NCBI GenBank assembly: GCA_001462345.1
Contig: LIUM01000019.1
Location: 1 to 64,000 of the forward strand
DNA from: Fibrobacteria bacterium AD312
Lineage (GTDB): Bacteria; Fibrobacterota; Fibrobacteria; Fibrobacterales; Fibrobacteraceae
DNA length: 64,000 nt
Direction: 5' to 3'
Under the pieces are notes generated by a model that saw only the letters and a program-made list of their open reading frames with translations, had not been told where the DNA came from and did not search any database. This document shows, in pieces, positions 31,204 to 51,620 of the stretch (the first letter of the stretch is position 1; each line of letters starts with the position of its first letter). Position numbers and translations under genes: made by a program.

Positions 31204-31227
31204 AATTTCTTAAAATTAATATCAAAA

Positions 31228-31257
31228 AAAGCACTGTTTTGAAACAGTGCTTTTTTT
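31228..31257. terminator. Bidirectional terminator after panC
   Basis: The 12-pair stem AAAGCACTGTTT/AAACAGTGCTTT is flanked by A and T runs, so it can stop transcription from panC and from the giant gene that faces it. Confidence 0.85.
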
Positions 31258-31268
31258 ATAATGAATTC

Positions 31269-31317: not shown

Positions 31318-34300
31318 TTATTTACGTCTCTTTTTCTTTTTAGTCTTAGGAGCTTGCTTTGTGTCTGCAGCTGGTGCAGGCTCATCTTTTTTTACTTCTT
31401 CGGCTTTACGAACATCTTTCATCTTAAAGCTGACGTTGATTTCAGCTGTTTCTACTTTTGAGTAGAGACCGCCTTTATCTTTAATCTTGAAGGTAAATTC
31501 GTCGAGTCCATAGAAGCCTTTATTAGGTGTGTAAGAGAAGGATCCATCGCGATTATTGATGGTTACAGAACCATTTTGAGGTTTGCTTACAAGCACTGCC
31601 TCAATAGGCTTTTCACCATCTGGATCTGTGGCTCCAGCCATTAAACCGTTTGTGGCATTTACTTTTAATACTTCACCTTCTTTAGTCTGGTAGGCTTGCG
31701 AAACAGCAACTGGGGCATCATTTACTGCAACTACAGTAAATTTAGCTTTTGTTGTAGCTGAAGCACCTTCTGGATCTGTGACAGTAAAGGTGATAGTTTC
31801 AGGAGATCCGTTCCAATGTTCATAAGGTTGAGATACCTTAAGTTCATTTCTAACGCGATCATGATCGACTCTTAAGAATTTGTTTCCTGTGAATGTCCAT
31901 TTTAATTCATCAAAACGATGATCTTTATCGCGTGCAAATTGGTCTAATTTGATTATTGCAATAACGCCATTGTTTTCATCTTCTTTGATTGTATAGTCAG
32001 GAATATCTCTCATGACTGGAACAGAATTCACGTGTTTGACAACAAATTTTGCCACCGATTTATCGGAAGCACCAGCAGGGTCTTTGGCTGTAAACACAAG
32101 CGTTTCTTCTCCAAACCAATCTAAACGTTTAGGTTTAATTAAGGCTTCACGTCCACTTGTTATCATCACATCTAGATGTCTGTTTCCTGTCACAGTCCAT
32201 TTGATTTCATGGTTTTTATTATCTGGATCTTTAACATAGTTATCAAGTTTAATAGGCTTAAATCCTTTGCCTTCAAGAGTTTCTTGTCCTTCAATAGCTG
32301 TAACTACTGGAGGGTCATTTACTGGTTTAACAGTAAATTTGGCTGTTATAGAAGCTTTTTCGCCACTAGGATCAAAAACATTGATTGTAACAGATTCTGA
32401 GCCATTCCAGAAAGAATCTGGAGTACGAATTGTTAGAACACCTTTTTGATCAATGTTGAAATCTAACTCGTGCTTAACCGTAGATGGTTTGCCGCTTGTT
32501 AAACGACCTTTCTTGTCTTTTGAGGGAGGTAAACCATTATCAATCGTCCAATAGAGATCTTCTAATTTATTATCAGGATCAGATACTAACTTGCTAAAAT
32601 CAATTTGTGGAAATGATTTTTTCTCATCAATCGTGATCGGTTGAATGTTTTTCAGTTGTGGAGGATCATTGACTGGGGTTACTTCAAATGTTACTGATTC
32701 AGAAGCTGAAGCACCTAATTTATCTTTCACAGTAAATATGAGCGTTTCTTTGCCAAACCAATTTGGATTTGGAGCCATCACCATGGCTTTTGAACCTCTA
32801 ATTTCGACTTTCAAATCTTTATTTCCAGAAACAGACCAAGTTAATTCATTTGGCTTATTGTCTGGATCAGTGACTACACTTCCTAAATCCACAGGAGCAA
32901 ATTTTTCTTTTTCCTTAATCGTTTGACCTTTAAGTCCTTTAATTACTGGAGAATCATTGACTGGTTCTACTTTAAAGAGAATAGGTTGAACGGCTTTTCC
33001 ACCTTCTGGATCTTGTACCGTTAGAATTATTTTTTCTTCACCAAACCAGTATTTATCTGGTGTTGTGACGATGAGTTGATTTTTTGCATTTATAGATGCT
33101 TTTAATTGTCTTGTATTTTGTACAGAGAAATTAAGTGATGAAGTAGGGTGGTCATCATCGCTTACAAATGCATTTAGATCAACAGCCTTAAAGGATTCTT
33201 TTTCTTGAATTTCTTGTGTTGGAATTGGCTTTAAGACAGGAAGATCGTTGACGGATTCAACAACGAGTTGAATTGTTTTAGAGTCTTTAGCACCTTCAGG
33301 GTCTCTTACAGTAAAGGTCACTTTACGTTCACCATGGAAGAACTTAGAAGCGATCTTGATATTTGCCACTCTCTTGTCATCAATTTCAACAGTTACATCA
33401 TCTGCCACTGGAGCCACTTCTGCTTCTTCTTGTTTTTTTCCTTTTTTACCTTTACGGGCTTTTTTAGGCGCAGGAGCAGGTGTATTTGGATTTTCTACTT
33501 TAACATCCCAAACCAACTTATCCTTTTTGTGGTCTAGGTCTTCTACGAAGTTATCTAAAGGAATGCTCTTGAAAGAACCTTTTTCCTTGATTTTCTGATC
33601 AGGAATATCCTTGATTACAGGTGCATCATTGACTGAGGTGATTTCAAAAGGAACGATTATTGAAGAAGCGCCACCAGCTTTATCTTTGACAATTAAAACT
33701 AGAGATTCTTGTTCTCCATTGTAATGTGGATAAGGAGCAGTTACAGTTAAAACACGAGAAGAAGAAATTTCTGTTTTCAAGTTTTTCTGGCCACTCACTG
33801 TCCAAGTCAATTCTGATGGTTTGTCATCAGGATCTTTAACGTAATCATCTAATTTGATTGGCTTAAAGGTTTGTTTTTCTTTAATTTTTTGGCCAGGAAT
33901 AGCTGAAATGGTTGGAGGATCATTGACTTCTGTAGCCTCGAAAATCATTTTATGAGAATCTTTACCGCCTTCAGGGTCTGTGACTGTAAAGGTCAGCTCT
34001 TCTTTCCCAAACCATTGATTATGAGGAACAGAAATGATCACTGTATTGTCTTTCTTGATTTCAACTTTAAGATTTTTGTTACCAGTGATGGTCCATTTTA
34101 GATCTGTGACTTTATGATCAGGATCTGAGGCTAAAGTAGACAAATCAATCGTATTGAAACGGCCACCTTCGCGAATGGTTTCACCTTTTGAAGCTTTATC
34201 AGATATTTTTGGAATATCATTGATGGACATAACAGTTGCTTTCATTGTAGATGAAGCAACGCCACCTTCAGGGTCTGTAGCAGTAAATGTAATGTTTGCT

Positions 34301-37300
34301 GCGCCATTCCAATAGGTGTCAGGAATAACAATTGTTGCGATTTGTTTATTATCAATATTCACTTTCAAAGGAGATTCTGCTACTGGAGCAGCCTCTGCCT
34401 TTTTACCTCTTTTCTTTGAAGGAGCAGCTTTAGCACTAACTGGAACCGCTTTCCAACTCCAAGTCAAGGCTTCTTTCTTATGATCAGGGTCTTTAATAAA
34501 ATCATTCAACTTAATAGGAATGAATTGTTTCTTTTCATCAATTTCTTGATCAGGAATTTCTTTAACAAACTCAGGTTTATCATTTACAGATTCAATCGTA
34601 TAAACGACAGAACGTGTATCAGATGCCCCTTCTGGGTCAGTGACTGTGATTTTCAATGTTTCTGAGCCATGCCAGAATTCATTAGGTGCAGTTACTGTAA
34701 GTTTTCTTGATTGATCTAAAGAGGCTTTAAGGTCTTTATTTCCTTCAATTTTCCATTTCAATTTAGCATTGTCATGATCTAAATCATTTACATAATCATC
34801 AAGAGAAATGACCTTAAAGGCTGCTTTTTCTTTAATTGTTTGAGATGGAATGTCCTTCATTACTGGAGGATCGTTAATGGATTTAACAGAGAAAGTGGCT
34901 GTTTGTTTTGCCGTGGCTCCATCTGGATCAGAAACTGCAAATGTGATTTTTTCAGAACCATTCCATAATTTATTAGGAGTCGAAATGGAAACTTCACCAT
35001 TTTTATTCATGGATATTTTAAGATCCTTAGCTCCAGTGATGTTCCATTTTAATTTAGAATATGGATCATCAGGATCTTCCACTAATTCTGATAGATTAAA
35101 TGAAGCAAAAGATTCTTTTTCTAAGATGCTTTGATCATTAATCTTTTTCAAAACAGGTGCATCATTAATAGATTTTACAGTAAAGAGAACGGTGGATGTC
35201 GCTTTCGCTCCTTCAGGATCTGTAACAGTGAAGACGATTTGTTCTGCACCATTCCAATATTCATTTGGAGTGACTACAGTGGCCACTTTCTTTTCATCTA
35301 ATTTGACTTGAAGAGCTGTTTGATAGTTTTTAGGAGCACCAGGAGCTGGCTTTACTTCAAAGGTCCAGCTTAAATCATTTTTATTATGATCAGGATCATT
35401 AATGAAATCATTCAACGAAATAGGAGCAAATGTTTTTTTCTCATTAATGGTTTGGTTTTGAATGTCCTTCACAAAAATGGGCTGATCATTGATGGATTCA
35501 ATGGTGAATTGAACAGAACGACTATCAGAAGCACCTTCTGGATCAGTCACAGTAAATTTTATGGTTTCAGATCCATGCCAAAGAGGATTTGGTGCAGTGA
35601 CTGTTGCTTTTCGATTTGCATCAATAGTCGCTTTCAAATCTTTGTTTCCTGAAACAGTCCACTTTAATAGCTTAAAGTCATGATCCAGATCTTTTACATA
35701 ATTATCAAGCTCAATTTCCTTAAACTGTTGTTTTTCTTTAATGGTTTGGTCTTTTATGTCTGACATGATAGGAGGATCGTTAATCGATTTGACTGTAAAG
35801 ACAGCCGTTTGTTTAGCCGAAGCACCTTCTGGATCGGTGACTGTAAAGGTAATCTTCTCCATTCCATTCCATAAATTATTTGGAGTAGTAACGGAAGCAA
35901 TTCCGTTTTTAATAATGACCTTAAGATCTTTTTCTCCAGAAGTCGTCCATTTTAATTTATCAAATGAGTGGTCTGCATCAGTAACAATTTCTTGTAGATG
36001 AATTTCAGCGAAAGATTGTTTTTCATCAATGGTTTGATCATTGATTTTCTTTAAGACTGGAACGTCGTTAATAGATTTAACCGTAAATTTAGCAGAAACA
36101 GATGCCTTTCCACCTTCTGGATCTGTGGCGGTAAATGTAATTTGGTCTGCTCCATTCCACATTTTATCAGGAATTTGTATCGTCGCTACATGTTTAGCAT
36201 CTAGATTTACTTGTAAACCTGGGGTATATCCTTTGGGAGATCCTGGAGCTGCTTTGACATCAAAAGTCCATGTTAATTCATCTAATTTGTGATCAGGGTC
36301 TTTAATCATTTCCCCTAGTTTAATTGGAGCAAATTCTTTCTTTTCATCAATTTCCTGATCGTCCACTTTTTTGGTGAATTCAGGAAGATCGTTGATGGAT
36401 TCAATGGTAAATGTAACGGTTCTTTCGTCAGATGCATTTGCTGGGTCAGTGACCTTGATGTTTAATGTTTCTGAGCCATTCCAATAAATAGTAGGTGGAG
36501 TAATAGTCATTTTGCGATTAGCATCGATGACTACCTTTAATTCTTTATTTCCAGAAACAGTCCATTTTAGGTTATTTTTTTCGTGGTCAATATCAGTTAC
36601 AAAATTATCCAATTCAATAGGCTTGAATGATTGTTTTTCTTTAATAGTCTGTTCAGGAATATCTTTCAAAACTGGAGGGTCATTAATTGATTTTACAGTG
36701 AGCTTCATTGTTGTTGTAGCGGAACCACCTTCAGGGTCGGTTGCTTTTACTGTGAGTATTTCAGAACCATTCCAATTGATATTTGGTGTTTTGAAAGATA
36801 CTTCACGAGTCTTGGCGTTTAAGGAGGCTTTAATTTCTTTAAGACCAGATAATTCAATATTTAGTTTAGAAAGATCATGGTCTGCATCAGATAAAAATTC
36901 ATCTAAAACAACAGAACTAAGTTCGCTTTTTTCTTCTACTGTTTGATCTGCGATTTTCTTAAATACAGGAATATCATTAATGGATTTAACAGTAAAAGTA
37001 ACGTCTTGTTTTACTGTAGCACCTTCGGGGTCTGTTACAGTAAAGGTTACAATAGCGGCTCCATTCCAGTAGGTGTCAGGGATTTCAATGTTAGCAACAT
37101 GCTTTTCATTTACACTGACGTTTAACGTACCAGATTCAGGTTCTTTTCCTTGGTGTTTTACACTAACATCAATAGAGAGGTCAGAATTTTTATGGTCAGG
37201 ATCTTTGATGAATTCATCAATGTTTATAGGAGTAAATTTTTTCTTTTCATCAATAAATTGATTTGGAATTGTCTTTACAAAAACGGGGGCGTCATTAATT

Positions 37301-38595
37301 GAATTTACAGTAAAGGTTGCTTGAGATTCAGCAGAAGCTCCTGCAGGGTCGGTTACTTTGAATGTAATGGTTTCTGAGCCATTCCATAGATTATTGGGAA
37401 TCAAAATATTGGCTTCTTTTCCTGCAATTTGAACTTTAAGACTTTTGTTGCCAGTCACACTCCATTTTAATTCTTCAAACGAATGATCAACATCTTTCAC
37501 TAATTTATCAAGAACTATTGGCTTAAACTGTTGCTTTTCATCAATCGTTTGATCAGTGATGCTGGAGATAAATTCTGGAGCGTCATTGACTGATTTCACT
37601 GTAAAGGATGTTTTAAAACTAGCAGAAGCGCCCTTTGAATCTGTGGCTGTGAAAGTAAAGGTTTCTGTAGGTCCGTTCCAATTTTCATTGGGGGTAGAAA
37701 TGGTAGCGATATTGGATTTATCAATAGAAGCCTTTAATTGATTGCCTCCGCTTACAGCCCATTTGATGGTGTTGATGTCATCATCTATATCGCTTACTAA
37801 TTCAGAAAGATTAATTTGTTCGAATTGATTTTTTTCGTTAATGGTTTGATCTGGAGCTTTTTGAACAATAGGAGGATCATTGATTGAACGAACAGTAAAG
37901 GATGCCGATGTTTTTGCACTTGCATATTCACCATCGGTGGCGATGAAAGTGATTTTGGCGGCACCGTACCAATTGGTATCTGGAATGACGATATTGGCCA
38001 TTCTGTTTTTATCTATAGTAACTGAGATGTCTCCAATCCCTTGTTCTTTGCCTATTGGTTGGACGTCGGTTTCCCAAATAATTTGTTCTTTAGGATGATC
38101 TTTATCTGTAACAAAATCATCTAATTTTATAACTGTAAAACTTTTCCCTTCATCAATAGTTTGATCAGGAATAGTTTTTAGTTCAGGGGGGTTGTTTACT
38201 GATTCTACAGTAAATGTTACCGTTTCAGAACCAGAGGCGTTCTTTGTGTCGGTTGCAACAAAAGTGATATCTTCAGAGCCATTCCAGTAAGCGTCAGGCG
38301 TTTTGATTGTTGCGATTCGGTCAGAAATGGTGACCTTCAGATCTTTTGCACCAGATACAGTCCATCGTATGGATGCAGGCTTATCTTCTTCATCTGAAAC
38401 ATATTGATCTAGTTTGATGGTTGCAAAAGAGCCGCCTTCTGAAATAGATTCACCTGGAATTCCATTCACAGCAGGTGCATGATTTTCTTGAGCTTTTGCT
38501 GCTGGTTGTTGAGCTTCTTGAGCGGTACCTGAAACCGCAAAAAACAACCCAATGGATACTAACAAAGCGGTAATAGACGTTTTCACTGAATTCAT
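31318..38595 (-). CDS. Giant exported protein of 22 Ig/cadherin-like domains in A-B-C triads
   Basis: The 2425-residue protein starts with a signal peptide (about 1-26, ending SGTAQ). From residue ~38 it consists of 22 related ~97-125-residue domains, each built as: (I/V)PxQxIxEKxxFxxIxLxxxVxDxDH, a W-centred strand, a YWNGSExITFTVTDPEGAS block and TFTVxSINDxP at the join. Acidic DxDH/DPDN motifs may bind calcium. One divergent tandem-95/VCBS-like domain follows (NGSVTINNRDGSFSYTPN, GLDEFTFKIKD), then a short basic end (TKKKKRRK). The domains repeat in groups of three; the first of each group has a longer loop, and in two of them this loop is Lys-rich. GGGAG precedes the ATG. A surface or periplasmic scaffold or adhesin is likely; no enzyme domain is seen. 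Confidence 0.93.
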   Translation of the reverse strand: MNSVKTSITALLVSIGLFFAVSGTAQEAQQPAAKAQENHAPAVNGIPGESISEGGSFATIKLDQYVSDEEDKPASIRWTVSGAKDLKVTISDRIATIKTPDAYWNGSEDITFVATDTKNASGSETVTFTVESVNNPPELKTIPDQTIDEGKSFTVIKLDDFVTDKDHPKEQIIWETDVQPIGKEQGIGDISVTIDKNRMANIVIPDTNWYGAAKITFIATDGEYASAKTSASFTVRSINDPPIVQKAPDQTINEKNQFEQINLSELVSDIDDDINTIKWAVSGGNQLKASIDKSNIATISTPNENWNGPTETFTFTATDSKGASASFKTSFTVKSVNDAPEFISSITDQTIDEKQQFKPIVLDKLVKDVDHSFEELKWSVTGNKSLKVQIAGKEANILIPNNLWNGSETITFKVTDPAGASAESQATFTVNSINDAPVFVKTIPNQFIDEKKKFTPINIDEFIKDPDHKNSDLSIDVSVKHQGKEPESGTLNVSVNEKHVANIEIPDTYWNGAAIVTFTVTDPEGATVKQDVTFTVKSINDIPVFKKIADQTVEEKSELSSVVLDEFLSDADHDLSKLNIELSGLKEIKASLNAKTREVSFKTPNINWNGSEILTVKATDPEGGSATTTMKLTVKSINDPPVLKDIPEQTIKEKQSFKPIELDNFVTDIDHEKNNLKWTVSGNKELKVVIDANRKMTITPPTIYWNGSETLNIKVTDPANASDERTVTFTIESINDLPEFTKKVDDQEIDEKKEFAPIKLGEMIKDPDHKLDELTWTFDVKAAPGSPKGYTPGLQVNLDAKHVATIQIPDKMWNGADQITFTATDPEGGKASVSAKFTVKSINDVPVLKKINDQTIDEKQSFAEIHLQEIVTDADHSFDKLKWTTSGEKDLKVIIKNGIASVTTPNNLWNGMEKITFTVTDPEGASAKQTAVFTVKSINDPPIMSDIKDQTIKEKQQFKEIELDNYVKDLDHDFKLLKWTVSGNKDLKATIDANRKATVTAPNPLWHGSETIKFTVTDPEGASDSRSVQFTIESINDQPIFVKDIQNQTINEKKTFAPISLNDFINDPDHNKNDLSWTFEVKPAPGAPKNYQTALQVKLDEKKVATVVTPNEYWNGAEQIVFTVTDPEGAKATSTVLFTVKSINDAPVLKKINDQSILEKESFASFNLSELVEDPDDPYSKLKWNITGAKDLKISMNKNGEVSISTPNKLWNGSEKITFAVSDPDGATAKQTATFSVKSINDPPVMKDIPSQTIKEKAAFKVISLDDYVNDLDHDNAKLKWKIEGNKDLKASLDQSRKLTVTAPNEFWHGSETLKITVTDPEGASDTRSVVYTIESVNDKPEFVKEIPDQEIDEKKQFIPIKLNDFIKDPDHKKEALTWSWKAVPVSAKAAPSKKRGKKAEAAPVAESPLKVNIDNKQIATIVIPDTYWNGAANITFTATDPEGGVASSTMKATVMSINDIPKISDKASKGETIREGGRFNTIDLSTLASDPDHKVTDLKWTITGNKNLKVEIKKDNTVIISVPHNQWFGKEELTFTVTDPEGGKDSHKMIFEATEVNDPPTISAIPGQKIKEKQTFKPIKLDDYVKDPDDKPSELTWTVSGQKNLKTEISSSRVLTVTAPYPHYNGEQESLVLIVKDKAGGASSIIVPFEITSVNDAPVIKDIPDQKIKEKGSFKSIPLDNFVEDLDHKKDKLVWDVKVENPNTPAPAPKKARKGKKGKKQEEAEVAPVADDVTVEIDDKRVANIKIASKFFHGERKVTFTVRDPEGAKDSKTIQLVVESVNDLPVLKPIPTQEIQEKESFKAVDLNAFVSDDDHPTSSLNFSVQNTRQLKASINAKNQLIVTTPDKYWFGEEKIILTVQDPEGGKAVQPILFKVEPVNDSPVIKGLKGQTIKEKEKFAPVDLGSVVTDPDNKPNELTWSVSGNKDLKVEIRGSKAMVMAPNPNWFGKETLIFTVKDKLGASASESVTFEVTPVNDPPQLKNIQPITIDEKKSFPQIDFSKLVSDPDNKLEDLYWTIDNGLPPSKDKKGRLTSGKPSTVKHELDFNIDQKGVLTIRTPDSFWNGSESVTINVFDPSGEKASITAKFTVKPVNDPPVVTAIEGQETLEGKGFKPIKLDNYVKDPDNKNHEIKWTVTGNRHLDVMITSGREALIKPKRLDWFGEETLVFTAKDPAGASDKSVAKFVVKHVNSVPVMRDIPDYTIKEDENNGVIAIIKLDQFARDKDHRFDELKWTFTGNKFLRVDHDRVRNELKVSQPYEHWNGSPETITFTVTDPEGASATTKAKFTVVAVNDAPVAVSQAYQTKEGEVLKVNATNGLMAGATDPDGEKPIEAVLVSKPQNGSVTINNRDGSFSYTPNKGFYGLDEFTFKIKDKGGLYSKVETAEINVSFKMKDVRKAEEVKKDEPAPAADTKQAPKTKKKKRRK

Positions 38596-38940: not shown

Positions 38941-39708
38941 ATGGAAAAAATAGATGACAATTTAAAACAATTTCTGAAGGAAGTTAGGGGAACTCAAGTT
39001 CTTTCGCGCTCTGAAGAAATGCTTCTCTTTCAGTTAATGGCTCAAGGGAATAAAGAAGCTAAGCACAAGCTAGTGGTTGCCAATATCAAATTTGTTACCA
39101 AGGTGGCTTTACAGTATAAATCATCTTCTCTTTCTTCTGCAGACCTGATTAATGAAGGAACAATGGGATTAATTCGAGCAATCGAAAGCTATGACCCTTC
39201 TAGGGGGCTTAAGTTTATCTCTTATGCGGTTTGGTGGATTAGAGCCTATATTACTAGAGCTATTTATGAACAAGATACTTTAATTCGGTTGCCTTCCAAT
39301 CAACGTTGGCGATTAAATCAGGCTAGGCGATCTAATGAAAAAGTCGATGATATTGAAGAAAATGTAAAAGTGCTTATGCAGATGGGGTTATCTGGTGTTT
39401 CAATAGATTCTCCTATTTCCAACGCTACTACAGTGACTTTTGCAGATGTGATAGCATCTCCTCATAAGTCCACAGATGAAGAGAATGATGCCCTGATTTC
39501 GGTTCTTAAAAAGGAACTTTCTGGTCGAGAATATCAAGTGATTATTGATTTTTATGGTTTAAATGAGGTTTCTTCTAAAACATTGGGAGAAATTGCAAAA
39601 ACTCTTGAACTTTCGAGAGAACGGGTACGTCAGCTTCGAAATCAGGCTCTTCAACGTATTCGAAAAACGATGAATCGTACAGATTCTTCGTGTAGGTCGT
39701 ATTTATAG
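38941..39708 (+). CDS. RNA polymerase sigma-70 family factor, short Bacteroidetes-like primary type
   Basis: The 255-residue protein lacks region 1.1 and has region 1.2/2 (LLFQLMAQGNKEAKHKLVVANIKFVTKVA; LINEGTMGLIRAIESYDPSRGLKFISYAVWWIR), a short region 3, and region 4 with the helix-turn-helix KTLGEIAKTLELSRERVRQLRNQALQRIRK. LIRLPSNQ follows region 2. The short length resembles primary sigma factors of Bacteroidetes, which read -33 TTG / -7 TAnnTTTG promoters; such elements occur upstream of several genes here. Whether it is the housekeeping factor or a second RpoD-like one cannot be decided from the window. Confidence 0.93.
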   Translation: MEKIDDNLKQFLKEVRGTQVLSRSEEMLLFQLMAQGNKEAKHKLVVANIKFVTKVALQYKSSSLSSADLINEGTMGLIRAIESYDPSRGLKFISYAVWWIRAYITRAIYEQDTLIRLPSNQRWRLNQARRSNEKVDDIEENVKVLMQMGLSGVSIDSPISNATTVTFADVIASPHKSTDEENDALISVLKKELSGREYQVIIDFYGLNEVSSKTLGEIAKTLELSRERVRQLRNQALQRIRKTMNRTDSSCRSYL

Positions 39709-40198: not shown

Positions 40199-41704
40199 AT
40201 GCGACGTCGAGTGCTAGAGTCTCTTGCCTCTCAGGGGGCTTTAGTTGCTTTCGTGTCGACTCCTAATGATTCTTTGGAGGCTTCAGAAGCAATTCTTTTA
40301 GCGCACTCTTTTAATACGAGTGCGCTTTCTCTTATTATTGACTTTCAGGGAATTTTTAAATCTTACTCTGTAAGATCATGTGAATCTCTTTTTTCAACTC
40401 GTTTTCACTTTAATGAAAGCATTGAAGAACAAGATGGTTTTGCATTATTGACTTCTAATGGAGTCTCTATTCCAGAAGATTCTCAATCGATACATTTGTT
40501 TTTACAAAATCTTGTTTCTCTTCAAAAACAACATCCATTTATTTTACTTTTTCTCCCAGCAGAACATACTTCTTTTTTTGAAAAACTTTTATCTGCTGTA
40601 CAGTTGATGGTTGTCTATCCAACGGATGAACAATCACTTTCAACTCTCTCAAAATCCATTTCTTCCATGGATGGATTGAGAAAAGAAAAAATTTTATGGC
40701 TTTTTTCTTTGTTGCCTAGTTCAAAAGAATTTCCTCGATTACATAAAGAAGTAAAAATATATTCAGACATTAAACAGAAGGCCGTGGAGACATGGAAAAA
40801 AGATTTTCCTGCTTTTGCTGTTGAAATAAAAAATATTTTAAAAATCCAAATTCTAAAAAAGAATCCTCTGGATGGATTTGCTCGTGTTTTTTTGAGCCTT
40901 TGGCCTTTGTTGCTTGTATTTGCTTTAATCATTCCTTTTCTAATTCCAAAAAAGTTGGAGCCAACCATTTCTAATTTGAGAGATGCTCGTCAAGAACGCA
41001 ATGCACTATCTGGTGCTCCTTATTTTTTATTTGAGTTTGATGGCAAAGAAACGTTACAACGTATAGGTCGCTATGCCGTTGGTCGTTTTAATGCTCAAGT
41101 CACTACAGAAAAAACATTAAATCAGTATGTGGAAGAAGTTCTTGAAAAAAATGGTTATCCAAAATCTTCATGGCGAAAAGAAAAAGTAAATATTCCGCCT
41201 CGGGGTACTCGTCTTCAATTTTTGCCTCCTGAATTTTTATCTCCAGCTAAAAATGATTCTCTTGGTCTTGCGTGGGGCTATTTCACTAGTCTTATCTCTG
41301 ATAGTATTGCTTATTTAACAGAATTATATCATGAATCACCAAAAGAAGTGGGGCGAGTGCATCGTGGAATTGATATTGCAAGTCGTCATGGAGCACGCAT
41401 ACTAGCACCCTTTGCTGCAAAAGCATGGACATTCAAAGATGAACGTGGTGGAGTTGTAATAGGCCTTGTTCATGAAAAGAAGGTAATGCTTTTTATGCAT
41501 TGTGATCAGCTTCTTTATTTGGATGGTCAAGAGGTGATGGCTGGTGATCCTATTGCAACGGTAGGTACAACAGGGCATACTACAGGTCCTCATGTTCATC
41601 TTGAAACAGGTATTGTTCAGAAGAAAGGGGATAAGTTTTTGGGGAATATTCGCTATAAAACTGTGAACCCCATCACTTGGTTCTATTTGCAAGTCAAAAA
41701 ATAG
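40199..41704 (+). CDS. Membrane M23 (LytM) peptidase with cytosolic MinD/CpaE-like domain
   Basis: The 501-residue protein has three parts. Residues 1-215 look like a degenerate ParA/MinD domain: GALVAFVSTPNDSLEASEA sits where the P-loop would be but lacks it, SLIIDFQG resembles the Walker B strand, and FILLFLP then LMVVYPTDEQSL resemble the later strands. A transmembrane helix follows at about 230-249. The rest is outside the cytosol and ends in an M23 domain (385-480) with H388-x3-D392, H434 and H465-V-H467, so the zinc site is intact and peptidoglycan crosslinks or peptides are the expected substrate. AAGGA precedes the ATG. The N-terminal call is uncertain; the M23 call is firm. Confidence 0.9.
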   Translation: MRRRVLESLASQGALVAFVSTPNDSLEASEAILLAHSFNTSALSLIIDFQGIFKSYSVRSCESLFSTRFHFNESIEEQDGFALLTSNGVSIPEDSQSIHLFLQNLVSLQKQHPFILLFLPAEHTSFFEKLLSAVQLMVVYPTDEQSLSTLSKSISSMDGLRKEKILWLFSLLPSSKEFPRLHKEVKIYSDIKQKAVETWKKDFPAFAVEIKNILKIQILKKNPLDGFARVFLSLWPLLLVFALIIPFLIPKKLEPTISNLRDARQERNALSGAPYFLFEFDGKETLQRIGRYAVGRFNAQVTTEKTLNQYVEEVLEKNGYPKSSWRKEKVNIPPRGTRLQFLPPEFLSPAKNDSLGLAWGYFTSLISDSIAYLTELYHESPKEVGRVHRGIDIASRHGARILAPFAAKAWTFKDERGGVVIGLVHEKKVMLFMHCDQLLYLDGQEVMAGDPIATVGTTGHTTGPHVHLETGIVQKKGDKFLGNIRYKTVNPITWFYLQVKK

Positions 41705-41758: not shown

Positions 41759-41766
41759 TAGTTTTG
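41759..41766 (+). promoter_or_regulatory. TAnnTTTG element before the small lipoprotein gene
   Basis: TAGTTTTG, 41 bases upstream of the ATG at 41808; fits the consensus. No TTG at -33. Confidence 0.4.
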
Positions 41767-41807
41767 TGTCTGGGAAAAGGATGGATGAAACATTTATAGG
41801 AGTATAC

Positions 41808-42245
41808 ATGAAATTACGCTTTTTCATTTTCTTTGTTTTCGCATCCTTGTTCTTAGGTTGTTCTTCTTTATCTATGCCAAAAGCAAAAGTAGTTGAACAT
41901 GAAGCTGATCGTACTATCCCTGCAATTGATGAAATGATCGTTGAAATGAAACAGGATTACATCACAAAGTGCTATGCTCCTGTAATTAATCGTGATCCAC
42001 CTGAAAATTCTTGTCAAACAGAACTTTTTCAAATGTTAGAACGTCGCTATCATACTAACTATAGCCAAAATCACGTTAATATGGCTTCAAATGACCTCTT
42101 TTTTAGAGATGTGGAAGTTCAGTTGAAGAAAATGGTTCGTACTGATCCAGGCGTTCGTAATGCCGTTAAAAATGGTGCTTTTACAAGTACTGACGAAATG
42201 CTTTCCTACTACAAAGGAAAGTATGCTTTTGAATCAAATCAATAA
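41808..42245 (+). CDS. Small lipoprotein of unknown function
   Basis: The ATG at 41808 has TAGGAG five bases upstream, so I reject an earlier in-frame start at 41766. The 145-residue product begins with a lipoprotein signal ([20 protein letters not shown]), and the mature part is mostly helical and charged with two extra cysteines ([19 protein letters not shown]) that could form a disulfide. I do not recognise the family. It follows the M23 peptidase gene but has its own TAnnTTTG element and a terminator after it. Confidence 0.75.
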
Positions 42246-47207: not shown

Positions 47208-50200
47208 TTAGACAGTCTTCTTTTCTAACTCTCTAGCATTAATGATTAACATTTGTAAGCGATTCTCAATATTGGCAAAGCTTGTATCTGGATCGTAATC
47301 TAGAGAAAGCACTTGAATATGCGGGTATTTTTCTTTAACCGCTTTAGTCAGGCCTCTGCCAGAGATGTGATTGGCGAGACAAGCAAAAGGCTGTACAATA
47401 ATAAAGCTATTGATGCCTTGTTCTGCATTATAAAGAATTTCTCCAGGAATAAGCCAGCCTTCTCCTGTGCTATATGTGGGGTCAATGATATCTCCAACCA
47501 AATGAATCAATTCTGTACAATCGGCATGATGTTCATAGAATTTAAAATTCATTAAACGTTTTTGGATGGTTTCAATTGCAAAGGTATACACCTTGGCTGT
47601 GAGCCCGCCAATGAGCGTTTGCATAAGTGGACTAGGTGAAAAGCCTCTTTTAATTTTTAGTTTTTTGACAACTTCATCGACTCTAAAGAAATCAACCATT
47701 GCAGGAAGATAAACTTCCATGCCGTTATTCATTAGATAATCTTCAATGTAACCGTTAGCACTTGGATGGTAATTCATTAGAATTTCACCAAGAAGCACTA
47801 CTCTTGGTTTTCTAATGCTGCGGTCGGCTTCAATGGTATTGAATTCTGCAACGCATTCATCAAACAAAGCAAGGACTTTTTTAGGGTAAGCTATTTTACT
47901 TTTTGGAAGTTGTCCTAATTCCTTCATTAGGATAGGAATCCACTTGTCGTAGACTTTTTGAGTGTCTCCGTTATGGATCTCATAAGGACGAATGGCGCGA
48001 TACATGGTCTCTATAGCATCCATGACCGATAAACCCCAAAGCATATGGAGACGGAAGTCTAAGCCTACCTTAAAACCTGGATGCATATTTTTGGTATCAC
48101 TTCCAGTGGAAATCATAGCTACATTCGTATAGCCAGCCTCATCTAAGGCTTTTCTTGCAAGAACGGAATACTGACCAGCTCTACAGTTTTCACAGTTTTT
48201 AGCAAGACCAATAGCCATATCTTCTTGTTTGATTTCAGGATGCTCTTCTAACCAGAGTAAGTTTTCGCCGATATTCACTTGTGCTGGGAAGCAAATATCG
48301 TTATGAACAAACTTCTTACCTAATTCGATGGCTCTTTTATTGGCAAGAGGTAGAGTAATGGTGTTAAAACCTAATCCATTGAAGTATTCTGAAGCCAAAA
48401 TACTAAACGGATGAGATAAATTCGGGATAAGAATAGTTCTTTTCTGTTTGTCTTGTTTTGTAAAAGGAGGGTCAAAGAGAACTTCATTGAAGTTTGTTTT
48501 TGGAGCAAGTTGAGCTTCTCTACGTGACTTGACCGTTTCAATAAAGCTCTTCACTCGAATACTAACAGGACCACGAGCATCGCCTTCATCTAATTTGAGC
48601 ATTAAGAGCTCTTTAGATGATTTTGTATGAAGCATTCGATTCATTTCATCTGTTAAAATAGAATCGTGACCACATCCAAAGCTTACGATTTGAACTAACT
48701 CAATCGATGGATCATTGGCGGCAATCATCGTTGCCCCAAGCATTCTCATATGGAATGAGTTTTTAATCTCCATTCGAGTGGCTGGAGGTATATTTTGATC
48801 GTATACACCTGGTAAAGATTCTGTGGTAATGACAGGTATTCCCATCGCGGTGAAATGACTTGCCACATTATGATTGATTAAGGTATCAGCATGATAAGGC
48901 CTACCTGCAATTACAACGGCGAAGGTGTTTTTAGCTTTTACGTCATCTAATATTTTTTGCCCTTCTAAAAGCAAGGTTTCTTTGTATGTATGGAGTGCTT
49001 TTTCAGCTTCATGGATTGCTTTTTTCAAGATTTTTTTAGGAATGTCCCAGTTCTCATGGAACCAAGCAATAGTCTGCTGAGTGCGCATTTTAGTATTAAA
49101 CCAGTGGAATATAGGCTGATCCATAGGAACGCCATAATTTTTTTCTGGTGCATCTGTATTTTGGCAAACACTAGGGTAACCTTGTACTACAGGGCAAACG
49201 GCAGTAGCTTTAAATTTACTGTGATCACTTGGTAGAGCGATCAACATCGGGAAGAAAATGCGATCTACTTTTTTATCAATTAAATCAAGAATATGACCGT
49301 GTACTAATTTTGCCGGGAAGCAAATAGTATCCGAAGGGACGCTATGTAAGCCTCTTTCAAAAAGTTTGTAATCACTTTGTTTACTAACGACAACGTTATA
49401 TCCAAGAGAAGTGAAGAAAGCCTTCCAAAAGGGGAGACTAGACCAGTATTCAAGTGCTCTTGGAATACCAATCGTCTTCCCTGATTGAGGAATTAGCTGT
49501 GCTGGAGCATAATCTTTGACAAGTAATTGATTGGTGCGTTTGATCATATCTGGCACAGAAAGCATTTTTTTATGAATTTCTGCGACTAGTTTTTTTGTTT
49601 CAGGATCGTTAGGGTCAGAGGTGACTTCTCCTCGTTCGCAACGATTTCCTGTAACGAAACTAGTACCATCGCTAAAGGTCACAATGGTTCTTGAACAATG
49701 GTTTGTACAATACTGACAAATTTGTCCGGGTTTATTGTCCCAACTGAATGTTTTAGCGGTTTCTAAACCAATAAAAGAGGTTTGAAGTTCTGGATTTGTT
49801 TTTCGCTTTTCTTCCATGAAGTGTTTTGTAAGAAGGGCAATTCCTATGGCCCCCATTTCACCAGGGCGTTCTGGACGGATGGGGATTAATCCAGTATGCT
49901 GTTCGAAAGCTCGTAAAACAGCGTTGTTTTTGAATGTTCCACCTTGAACTACAACATGTTGCCCAAGGGTATTCAGGTTACGAATTCGAATGACTTTGGT
50001 AAAAACGTTTTCAATAATAGAACGGCAAATACCTGCGATAATATCTTCAGGTTGTTTTCCGTCTCTTTGCTCTGTGATAATAGAGCTATTCATAAAGACG
50101 GTACAACGGCTGCCTAGTTTGGATGGATTCTTAGCGCGGAAGGCTAGTTCCGCAATATCTTCCATTTGAATACCAAGAGAACGAGCGTATGTTTCGATAA

Positions 50201-51620
50201 ACGAACCACAACCAGAAGAACAAGCTTCATTAAGAATAATTCCAGTGACAACACCATCTTGAACTGAAATGGCTTTCATATCTTGACCACCAATGTCAAG
50301 AATAAAGCTTACGTCAGGACAAATGTGTTTTGCTGCTGTGGCATGGGCTACCGTTTCTACCGTATGGTAGTCTGCATGGATGGCTTTCGCAATAAGTTGT
50401 TCGCCATAACCTGTAGTACCTACACCTAAGATGTTTAACTTGCAACCATATTCTTCATAGCGTTCGGTAAGCTCCACTAGCGCACGTTTTAGAACGGCAA
50501 GAGGTTCTCCGTCATTACTTGCATAAAAACCATCAATTACTTGTTCGTTTTCGTCCATCAACACGAGTTTTGATGTCGTAGAACCAGCATCAATACCGAG
50601 ATAAACGTTTAATACAGAACCTGAATTTGGTCGTGGGTAATGCGGGCTAGCCATTGGATGACGATCGAGGAATGATTTCAAATCGGCTTCGTCTTTAAAG
50701 AATAAATCAGATCCACCAGTGCGCTCAGAAGCTCTTTTTTCATTAAAGTGAAGAAGGGCTTCAAGAGAACCTTCTTGACGGTAATCGCAAGGCTTATCTA
50801 TGAACATGGAACCAATAGAAAGAGCGGCACCCCAAGCTACAAGAACTTCAGAACGTTCAGGAACAATGGCTTGTTCATCGGTAAGGCCTAGGCGTTCCTT
50901 AAAAACACGAACTAAAGTGGGATTGAATGTTAATGGGCCACCTTCAAACATGACAGGAGGTTTAATTTCCATGCCTTGTGCAAGGCCTCCAATGGTTTGC
51001 TTGGCGATGGCGTGAAAACTAGAAAGGGCGATGTCTTCTTTAGCGACGCCTTGGTTGAGCATGGGTTGAATGTCTGTTTTGGCAAATACACCACAGCGGC
51101 CTGAAATTTCATAGACTTTGGAGCCACGAGCGGCATAAGATTCAAATACTTCCGTTTTAATGCGAAGGAGTTCGGCGACTTGATCGATAAACGCCCCCGT
51201 ACCACCAGCGCAAACACCATTCATGCGCATATCACTTGCGATCAATTTACCTGTGGTTCGGTCTTTTTCAAAGAAAATAACTTTGGCATCTTGACCTCCA
51301 AGTTCGATTGCCACTCGTGTTTCAGGATTAGTTGCCCTGACAGCAAGAGCATTAGCTACGACTTCTTGAACAAAGAAAGAACGAGTCGCTTCAGCAAAAG
51401 GTTGACCACCACTACCACAAAACGCTACTTGAAAGTTTTTATCTGGAAATAAGCTATGAGCTTCAGTTAAAAGTTCCAGAACTTTTTTGGCTTGCATTGC
51501 ATTATGGCGCTGGTAAGAGTAATGAAGAAGTTTTGTTGTTGTTGGGTCTACTACAGCAATTTTTACTGTTGTGGATCCAACATCAACTCCAATCCATAAA
51601 TCATTTTTTATCATATTCAT
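47208..51620 (-). CDS. Giant acyl-CoA dehydratase activase (two BcrAD domains + DUF2229 + HgdB-like part)
   Basis: The 1470-residue protein has two ASKHA-fold BcrA/BadF-type ATPase domains (about 1-265, with GVDVGSTTVK and GVCAGGTGAFIDQ; about 335-610, with GIDAGSTTSK and ACSSGCGSFIE), then a DUF2229 region (IGIPRALEYWSSLPFWKAFF) and a C-terminal part like the 2-hydroxyacyl-CoA dehydratase subunit with several cysteines (AKNCENCRAGQ, SFGCGHDS). The cysteine in each activase domain would hold a [4Fe-4S] cluster at a dimer interface. Such fused proteins occur in anaerobes; the reaction is not established, though reductive activation of a dehydratase is expected. A second ATG is at 51614. TAAATTTG lies seven bases upstream. 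Confidence 0.92.
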   Translation of the reverse strand: MNMIKNDLWIGVDVGSTTVKIAVVDPTTTKLLHYSYQRHNAMQAKKVLELLTEAHSLFPDKNFQVAFCGSGGQPFAEATRSFFVQEVVANALAVRATNPETRVAIELGGQDAKVIFFEKDRTTGKLIASDMRMNGVCAGGTGAFIDQVAELLRIKTEVFESYAARGSKVYEISGRCGVFAKTDIQPMLNQGVAKEDIALSSFHAIAKQTIGGLAQGMEIKPPVMFEGGPLTFNPTLVRVFKERLGLTDEQAIVPERSEVLVAWGAALSIGSMFIDKPCDYRQEGSLEALLHFNEKRASERTGGSDLFFKDEADLKSFLDRHPMASPHYPRPNSGSVLNVYLGIDAGSTTSKLVLMDENEQVIDGFYASNDGEPLAVLKRALVELTERYEEYGCKLNILGVGTTGYGEQLIAKAIHADYHTVETVAHATAAKHICPDVSFILDIGGQDMKAISVQDGVVTGIILNEACSSGCGSFIETYARSLGIQMEDIAELAFRAKNPSKLGSRCTVFMNSSIITEQRDGKQPEDIIAGICRSIIENVFTKVIRIRNLNTLGQHVVVQGGTFKNNAVLRAFEQHTGLIPIRPERPGEMGAIGIALLTKHFMEEKRKTNPELQTSFIGLETAKTFSWDNKPGQICQYCTNHCSRTIVTFSDGTSFVTGNRCERGEVTSDPNDPETKKLVAEIHKKMLSVPDMIKRTNQLLVKDYAPAQLIPQSGKTIGIPRALEYWSSLPFWKAFFTSLGYNVVVSKQSDYKLFERGLHSVPSDTICFPAKLVHGHILDLIDKKVDRIFFPMLIALPSDHSKFKATAVCPVVQGYPSVCQNTDAPEKNYGVPMDQPIFHWFNTKMRTQQTIAWFHENWDIPKKILKKAIHEAEKALHTYKETLLLEGQKILDDVKAKNTFAVVIAGRPYHADTLINHNVASHFTAMGIPVITTESLPGVYDQNIPPATRMEIKNSFHMRMLGATMIAANDPSIELVQIVSFGCGHDSILTDEMNRMLHTKSSKELLMLKLDEGDARGPVSIRVKSFIETVKSRREAQLAPKTNFNEVLFDPPFTKQDKQKRTILIPNLSHPFSILASEYFNGLGFNTITLPLANKRAIELGKKFVHNDICFPAQVNIGENLLWLEEHPEIKQEDMAIGLAKNCENCRAGQYSVLARKALDEAGYTNVAMISTGSDTKNMHPGFKVGLDFRLHMLWGLSVMDAIETMYRAIRPYEIHNGDTQKVYDKWIPILMKELGQLPKSKIAYPKKVLALFDECVAEFNTIEADRSIRKPRVVLLGEILMNYHPSANGYIEDYLMNNGMEVYLPAMVDFFRVDEVVKKLKIKRGFSPSPLMQTLIGGLTAKVYTFAIETIQKRLMNFKFYEHHADCTELIHLVGDIIDPTYSTGEGWLIPGEILYNAEQGINSFIIVQPFACLANHISGRGLTKAVKEKYPHIQVLSLDYDPDTSFANIENRLQMLIINARELEKKTV

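Follow-up and report, generated by a model that had tools for sequence, protein, structure and literature searches.

A giant tandem-95 protein of Fibrobacteraceae, probably exported, with a three-domain rhythm, a fixed domain count and a polarised charge

Super-repeats of 7 and 11 domains are described in titin (PMC5648799). Titin is eukaryotic and cytoplasmic, it is composed of a mix of Ig and Fn3 domains (~300 in all), and its super-repeat is fitted to the myosin repeat. In cadherins, the calcium between domains is bound by a Glu, a DxD, an Asp and a linker Asn-Asp. Among bacteria, the repeats of Ig-rod proteins are as a rule freely gained and lost, adhesins usually vary in repeat number, and tandem-95/Big_9 proteins are usually taken as surface proteins.

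The window, that is, the whole analysed stretch of 64,000 nucleotides from Fibrobacteria bacterium AD312, carries a giant gene (table 1) whose array belongs to the tandem-95 class (NF012211; Big_9 PF17963, Cadherin_5 PF17892). The product scores 623.4 bits against NF012211 (E 3e-192, 21 stretches), above the curated cut-off of 90 bits, and 574 bits against Big_9. Its tandem repeats, ~97 aa in B and C domains and 105-127 aa in A domains, agree with the ~95 residues expected for the class. The mature protein (265 kDa, pI 5.25) contains no cysteine. Export is suggested by the putative signal peptide, assigned from the sequence and from the N termini of 66 relatives, which are signal-peptide-like too; neither a lipobox nor a C-terminal membrane segment was visible on inspection of the sequence. 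With junction motifs and a profile derived from the protein's own domains, 23 domains were counted, one more than the 22 of the original count, the additional one being the diverged D23. Unlike other tandem-95 proteins, the Fibrobacteraceae protein combines a three-domain super-repeat whose every third domain has a loop, a fixed count of 23 or 20 domains, a charge gradient and a basic tail. No paper on it was found in the open literature searched.

Table 1. Features of the giant gene and its neighbours in the window (aa, residues of the giant product; AF2, AlphaFold2 model)
Feature	Position	Strand	Basis or remark
Gene, predicted exported tandem-95 protein, 2425 aa	31318..38595	-	ATG start; ORF intact in 66 relatives
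Predicted signal peptide, ~aa 1-25 (...FFAVSGTA, followed by QEAQ), without lipobox	38521..38595	-	Read from sequence; same pattern in relatives
Domain 1, aa 39-134; second Asp of DxD absent	38194..38481	-	Segmentation and calcium-site tally
Domains 2-22, aa 135-2292; A-B-C order, seven times	31720..38193	-	Segmentation
A-type domain 2	37879..38193	-	Loop insert
A-type domain 5	36976..37293	-	Loop insert
A-type domain 8	36067..36390	-	Loop insert; AF2 hairpin
A-type domain 11	35164..35487	-	Loop insert; AF2 hairpin
A-type domain 14; Lys-rich loop ~34381-34434 disordered in AF2	34219..34581	-	Loop insert
A-type domain 17; Lys-rich loop ~33406-33480 disordered in AF2	33247..33627	-	Loop insert
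A-type domain 20, long basic loop	32317..32667	-	Loop insert
Triad D9-D10-D11, aa 844-1144; missing in 20-domain clade	35164..36066	-	Comparison with relatives
Domain 23, aa 2293-2390; diverged canonical tandem-95/Big_9 cap	31426..31719	-	Profile and segmentation
Basic C-terminal tail, aa 2391-2425 (...KTKKKKRRK); starts with conserved FKMKD(V/L)R motif	31321..31425	-	Sequence and relatives
Intrinsic-terminator-like hairpin directly past stop	31223..31258	-	1 found vs shuffle mean 0.0
RpoS-like sigma factor, divergent from giant gene	38941-39708	+	171 bits vs TIGR02394, below cut-off
M23 peptidase	40199-41704	+	Adjoins giant gene in several Fibrobacteraceae genera
Small lipoprotein-like ORF, paired with M23 peptidase	41766-42245 (as lipoprotein, 41808-42245)	+	No Pfam match

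The closest folds were found in well-described rods, and the top Foldseek matches include titin I65-I70, protocadherin and cadherin ectodomains and an Aeromonas RTX-adhesin rod. Among PDB entries, titin I65-I70 (3b43, E 8e-24) comes closest in fold, and both proteins show multi-domain super-repeats; the match is one of fold. Cadherin and protocadherin ectodomains are alike in fold and in the Glu / DxD / xND pattern at their junctions, but identity in the structural alignments is 13-17%, and the Fibrobacteraceae protein is of a bacterial tandem-95 class and without a membrane anchor. The extender of the Aeromonas hydrophila RTX adhesin (6xi1, TM-score 0.39/0.50) is also a tandem Ig-like rod; on the contrary, the product matched no RTX, LPXTG or autotransporter model among the Pfam and NCBIfam profiles, and no type I secretion model. 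The sole PDB sequence-profile match is to the PKD domains of the KIAA0319-like protein (6nz0, E 1.3e-7), which is a eukaryotic receptor with a short PKD array.

AlphaFold2 models were made for D8-D13 and D14-D19, with the window's protein and the rows of two relatives (L011 and L012) as the only input. Single domains are confident (pLDDT 91 and 85, respectively), and the pTM values of 0.38 and 0.36 restrict this confidence to each domain, excluding the inter-domain geometry, twist or kink. In the D14-D19 model, the A14 and A17 loops are the sole segments below pLDDT 50, in agreement with the decorated domain that had been proposed for each triad. The helical or kinked rod of the original prediction, in which each turn would bear one such domain, may be one of several shapes of the chain.

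The calcium-site residues (Glu, DxD, Asp and linker Asn-Asp) are near 100% at almost all positions in 50 proteins. The DxD is degenerate in domain 1 alone, as expected for a domain with no preceding junction. This pattern points to calcium binding of the cadherin type, which would stiffen the chain.

The domains follow a three-domain rhythm, as originally predicted. In a comparison of the identity matrix that had been set beforehand, the mean identities of D2-D22 at offsets 1-6 were 40.7, 40.4, 48.6, 40.5, 40.4 and 46.7%, so that identity is higher at offset three than at one or two, and the respective values within D4-D14 were 42.8, 43.4, 58.6, 43.7, 42.6 and 56.3%. Shuffling of the domain order reached the offset-three excess in none of 20,000 trials (p = 5e-5), and for 15 of the 21 domains the most similar other domain of the protein lies at a distance divisible by three. 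The offset-three peak was present in the window's protein and all 16 relatives compared (17/17) after removal of the loop columns, including a protein of the sister family (L084; 48.9% at offset three vs 43.6-43.9%). In D15-D22 of the window's protein no such identity excess was found (38.2 vs 37.5/36.9; p 0.59), and in this part it is the extra loop of the A domains that keeps up the period. Tandem Repeats Finder detected no repeat at the DNA level. This is an indication that the repeat is old and visible in the protein alone.

The extra loop is located between two central strands. In all 50 proteins with 23 domains it is found at positions 2, 5, 8, 11, 14, 17 and 20, the positions given for the A domains in the original prediction, and at none of the B or C positions. 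The same order extends to other Fibrobacterota, including the sister family. The median loop length from A2 to A20 is 10, 10, 11, 11, 26, 41 and 26 residues, and the median net charge is -1, 0, +2, +3, +4.5, +6 and +4.5 (50 proteins), with short, near-neutral loops towards the N terminus and long, Lys-rich loops towards the C terminus. In the same proteins the charge of the domain bodies rises from about -7 in the first part of the chain to about 0 in the last, D20 and D23 being exceptions, and the C-terminal tail has a net charge of +9 (range +5 to +13). Thus, the chain is charge-polarised, with an acidic head and a basic foot ending in a Lys/Arg tail. Covalent attachment through a C-terminal Lys, as in Lpp, was discarded as a candidate, because relatives differ in their final residue (K, R or S).

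Fibrobacteraceae are gut and rumen bacteria, and most of them keep the gene as a single copy. Matches were obtained in 93 of the 111 family genomes, some of which are just fragments or are other tandem-95 proteins that matched weakly. All 67 complete copies that could be segmented, including that of the window, have either 23 domains (50 copies) or 20 (17 copies), with no other count. The 20-domain form aligns with positions 1-8 and 12-23 of the 23-domain form, and the proteins carrying it compose one clade nested within the 23-domain proteins, which indicates a single loss of exactly one triad (D9-D11). The triad is thus a unit of gain or loss, as had been suggested. The loss of a whole triad taken alone is one-in-three evidence; the loop phase is preserved in the 20-domain form as well. 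In the sister family (two genomes, ~46% identical), 23 domains with the long A domains in phase were also found, counting an initial domain and a half which precede the first ATG used.

A, B and C profiles trained on three genera called 21/21 domains in each of two other genera, 19/21 and 17/21 in the two genera that lie furthest away within the family, and 12/20 and 11/20 in the sister family. Judged from these sequences, the loops appear better kept than the remaining sequence across the distance to the sister family, where independent turnover may have occurred. Between genera, most domains match best at their own position. When the window's protein was compared with a relative (L056), the best match was at the same position for 19 of the 23 domains and in phase for all 23. 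A strict orthology of all domains by position was abandoned, because D10/D13 and D8/D11/D14 are often closer within species than between species and hence mix by species; for instance, within the window's protein D10 and D13 resemble each other, as do D8 and D14, more than they resemble their orthologs in another genus, so that in-phase homogenisation is seen. These relations suggest an old array with occasional exchange between in-phase domains and a total count held constant.

The original prediction further knew of no described family with such a periodicity. This calls for some qualification, since titin has its 7- and 11-domain super-repeats and near-identical two-domain super-repeats occur in the two other bacterial tandem-95 proteins compared, on plasmids of Priestia megaterium (L099 11434-25245) and Rhizobium rhizoryzae (L101 9709-13746), with ~90% identity at offset two vs 65% at offset one. 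The latter look like recent amplifications, whereas the Fibrobacter triad appears old, diverged and constant in number. Super-repeats as such are already known, and the interest here lies in the constancy of the triad together with its graded design. A distant Fibrobacterota protein (L086, G144; ORF of 1609 aa) has six domains of this class, with other repeats behind them and a C-terminal module that differs.

In one genus (g4, genomes G005-G016) the gene is missing in 12 of 12 genomes, while related genera keep it. Hence, the gene is not essential throughout the family. This is a clean loss of the gene in one lineage, in which type IX tails are present, and it could point to the function.

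The gene is flanked by folK, a deoxynucleoside kinase and panC on the one side, and by an RpoS-like sigma factor and an M23 peptidase on the other, with no type I secretion genes adjoining. It has its own terminator-like hairpin and is probably transcribed alone; the Rfam search returned no element. The conservation of the neighbors is confined to some genera, and the sigma factor adjoins the giant gene in genera g1 and g10 only. No operon partner was accepted, given the gene's own hairpin and the M23 peptidase and lipoprotein genes adjoining in some genera only. Co-loss with these two genes was rejected as well, since both are present in genomes without the giant gene, including those of g4. 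A bactofilin neighbor was also rejected, as the ORF concerned resembles a small lipoprotein. Elsewhere in the window, a gene at 47208-51620 (- strand) encodes a 1470-aa activase-type fusion with two acyl-CoA dehydratase activase stretches (TIGR00241).

With regard to export, F. succinogenes is thought to use a type IX system for the export of cellulases (PMC6851124). The type IX sorting domain TIGR04183 was found above cut-off at 45 other places of the genome, one of them a 755-aa ORF which also has a tandem-95 domain. On the contrary, D23 and the tail showed no TIGR04183 match even at E 10, and the candidate of a type IX substrate was rejected in the absence of TIGR04183 or a gliding-type CTD in the product. 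Type IX tails are present in 111 of 111 family genomes, including those without the giant gene, so there is no signal of co-occurrence. Besides the giant gene, the genome has two ORFs with tandem-95-like domains (G000:C46:218-760 and G000:C11:41276-41548; 755 and 2315 aa), the first being the one with the type IX tail. The envelope proteome of F. succinogenes S85 includes cadherin-type proteins of other sizes (PMC4619616), and its FSU_2931/2932 (22 and 318 kDa) were not equated with the giant protein, as the sizes differ from 234/265 kDa.

The explanation that we favor, tentatively and at somewhat below even confidence, is an exported, calcium-stiffened and charge-polarised envelope rod of fixed length, whose basic foot would rest on an anionic polymer and which would serve as a periplasmic spacer or scaffold. 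The 23 Ig/cadherin-like domains, joined by cadherin-type calcium junctions, would form a stiff strand of roughly 100 nm at 4-4.5 nm per domain, with the A-B-C triad (~13 nm) as the structural unit and an extra hairpin loop projecting from each A domain. From its polarised charge, the rod would seem to rest with its C-terminal third on an anionic polymer; the basic foot and the regularly spaced basic loops would most likely bind peptidoglycan, LPS or another polyanion, and the rod so bound may be a scaffold or spacer of the envelope, with the periplasm preferred to the surface as its site. The periplasm seems slightly more likely than the surface, because the product is missing the type IX sorting domain although tens of other proteins carry it. 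Against a rod standing upright in the periplasm, a length of 100 nm exceeds the few tens of nm of this compartment, and the rod would be required to lie flat. The usual placing of tandem-95/Big_9 proteins at the surface also speaks against the periplasm.

Location is also the point at which a different reading enters, namely that of a surface adhesin or rod outside the outer membrane, by which cells would be attached to plant fibre, to one another or to vesicles, with cadherin-like domains that bind carbohydrate or partners. We regard this as possible, with some doubt. The cadherin- and adhesin-like fold seen with Foldseek, a weak resemblance between D23 and an adhesin model of the Bap/LapF type and the cadherin-type proteins in the S85 envelope are in its favor, as are bacterial cadherin domains reported as carbohydrate-binding modules, insofar as work cited in PMC3124978 describes them; export by an unrecognised route is possible. 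The sorting domain common elsewhere in the genome and the RTX, LPXTG and autotransporter signatures are all missing, however, and a single copy of near-constant length is unlike adhesins. It is rather unlikely that the triad rhythm is a fossil of gene growth, without function among domains now interchangeable as spacer. Such a fossil would account for the fading of the offset-three excess in D15-D22, and the two-domain super-repeats of other tandem-95 proteins do arise by recent duplication, but the loop rhythm with its graded length and charge persists in 50/50 proteins and the sister family, D14-D20 included, and the profiles from three genera assign every domain in two others.

The constancy in number could also reflect a strict length ruler, in which a physical distance in the envelope would depend on how many triads the rod has, just as the length of the thick filament is set by the super-repeats of titin. 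The count fixed across two families, its change by one whole triad only, the super-repeat architecture and the titin precedent (PMC5648799) all fit, but the 20-domain clade shows that the length is not absolutely fixed, and a constant number may stem from a lack of recombination between diverged repeats; a strict ruler is judged improbable. We know of no structure in Fibrobacter with a matching 13-nm or 100-nm period. By analogy, the protein might even be a bacterial counterpart of titin, an envelope ruler with triads as the length quantum and graded basic whiskers, one per triad, reading a repeating anionic scaffold, and this we consider a long shot.

An exact bead count, a three-bead rhythm and graded charged loops kept in two families, with a single whole triad as the only change of length, call for a function that depends on length or spacing. 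The Fibrobacteraceae are major degraders of plant fibre and their envelope is little understood. The natural forms of 23 and 20 beads make a role in length or spacing directly testable.
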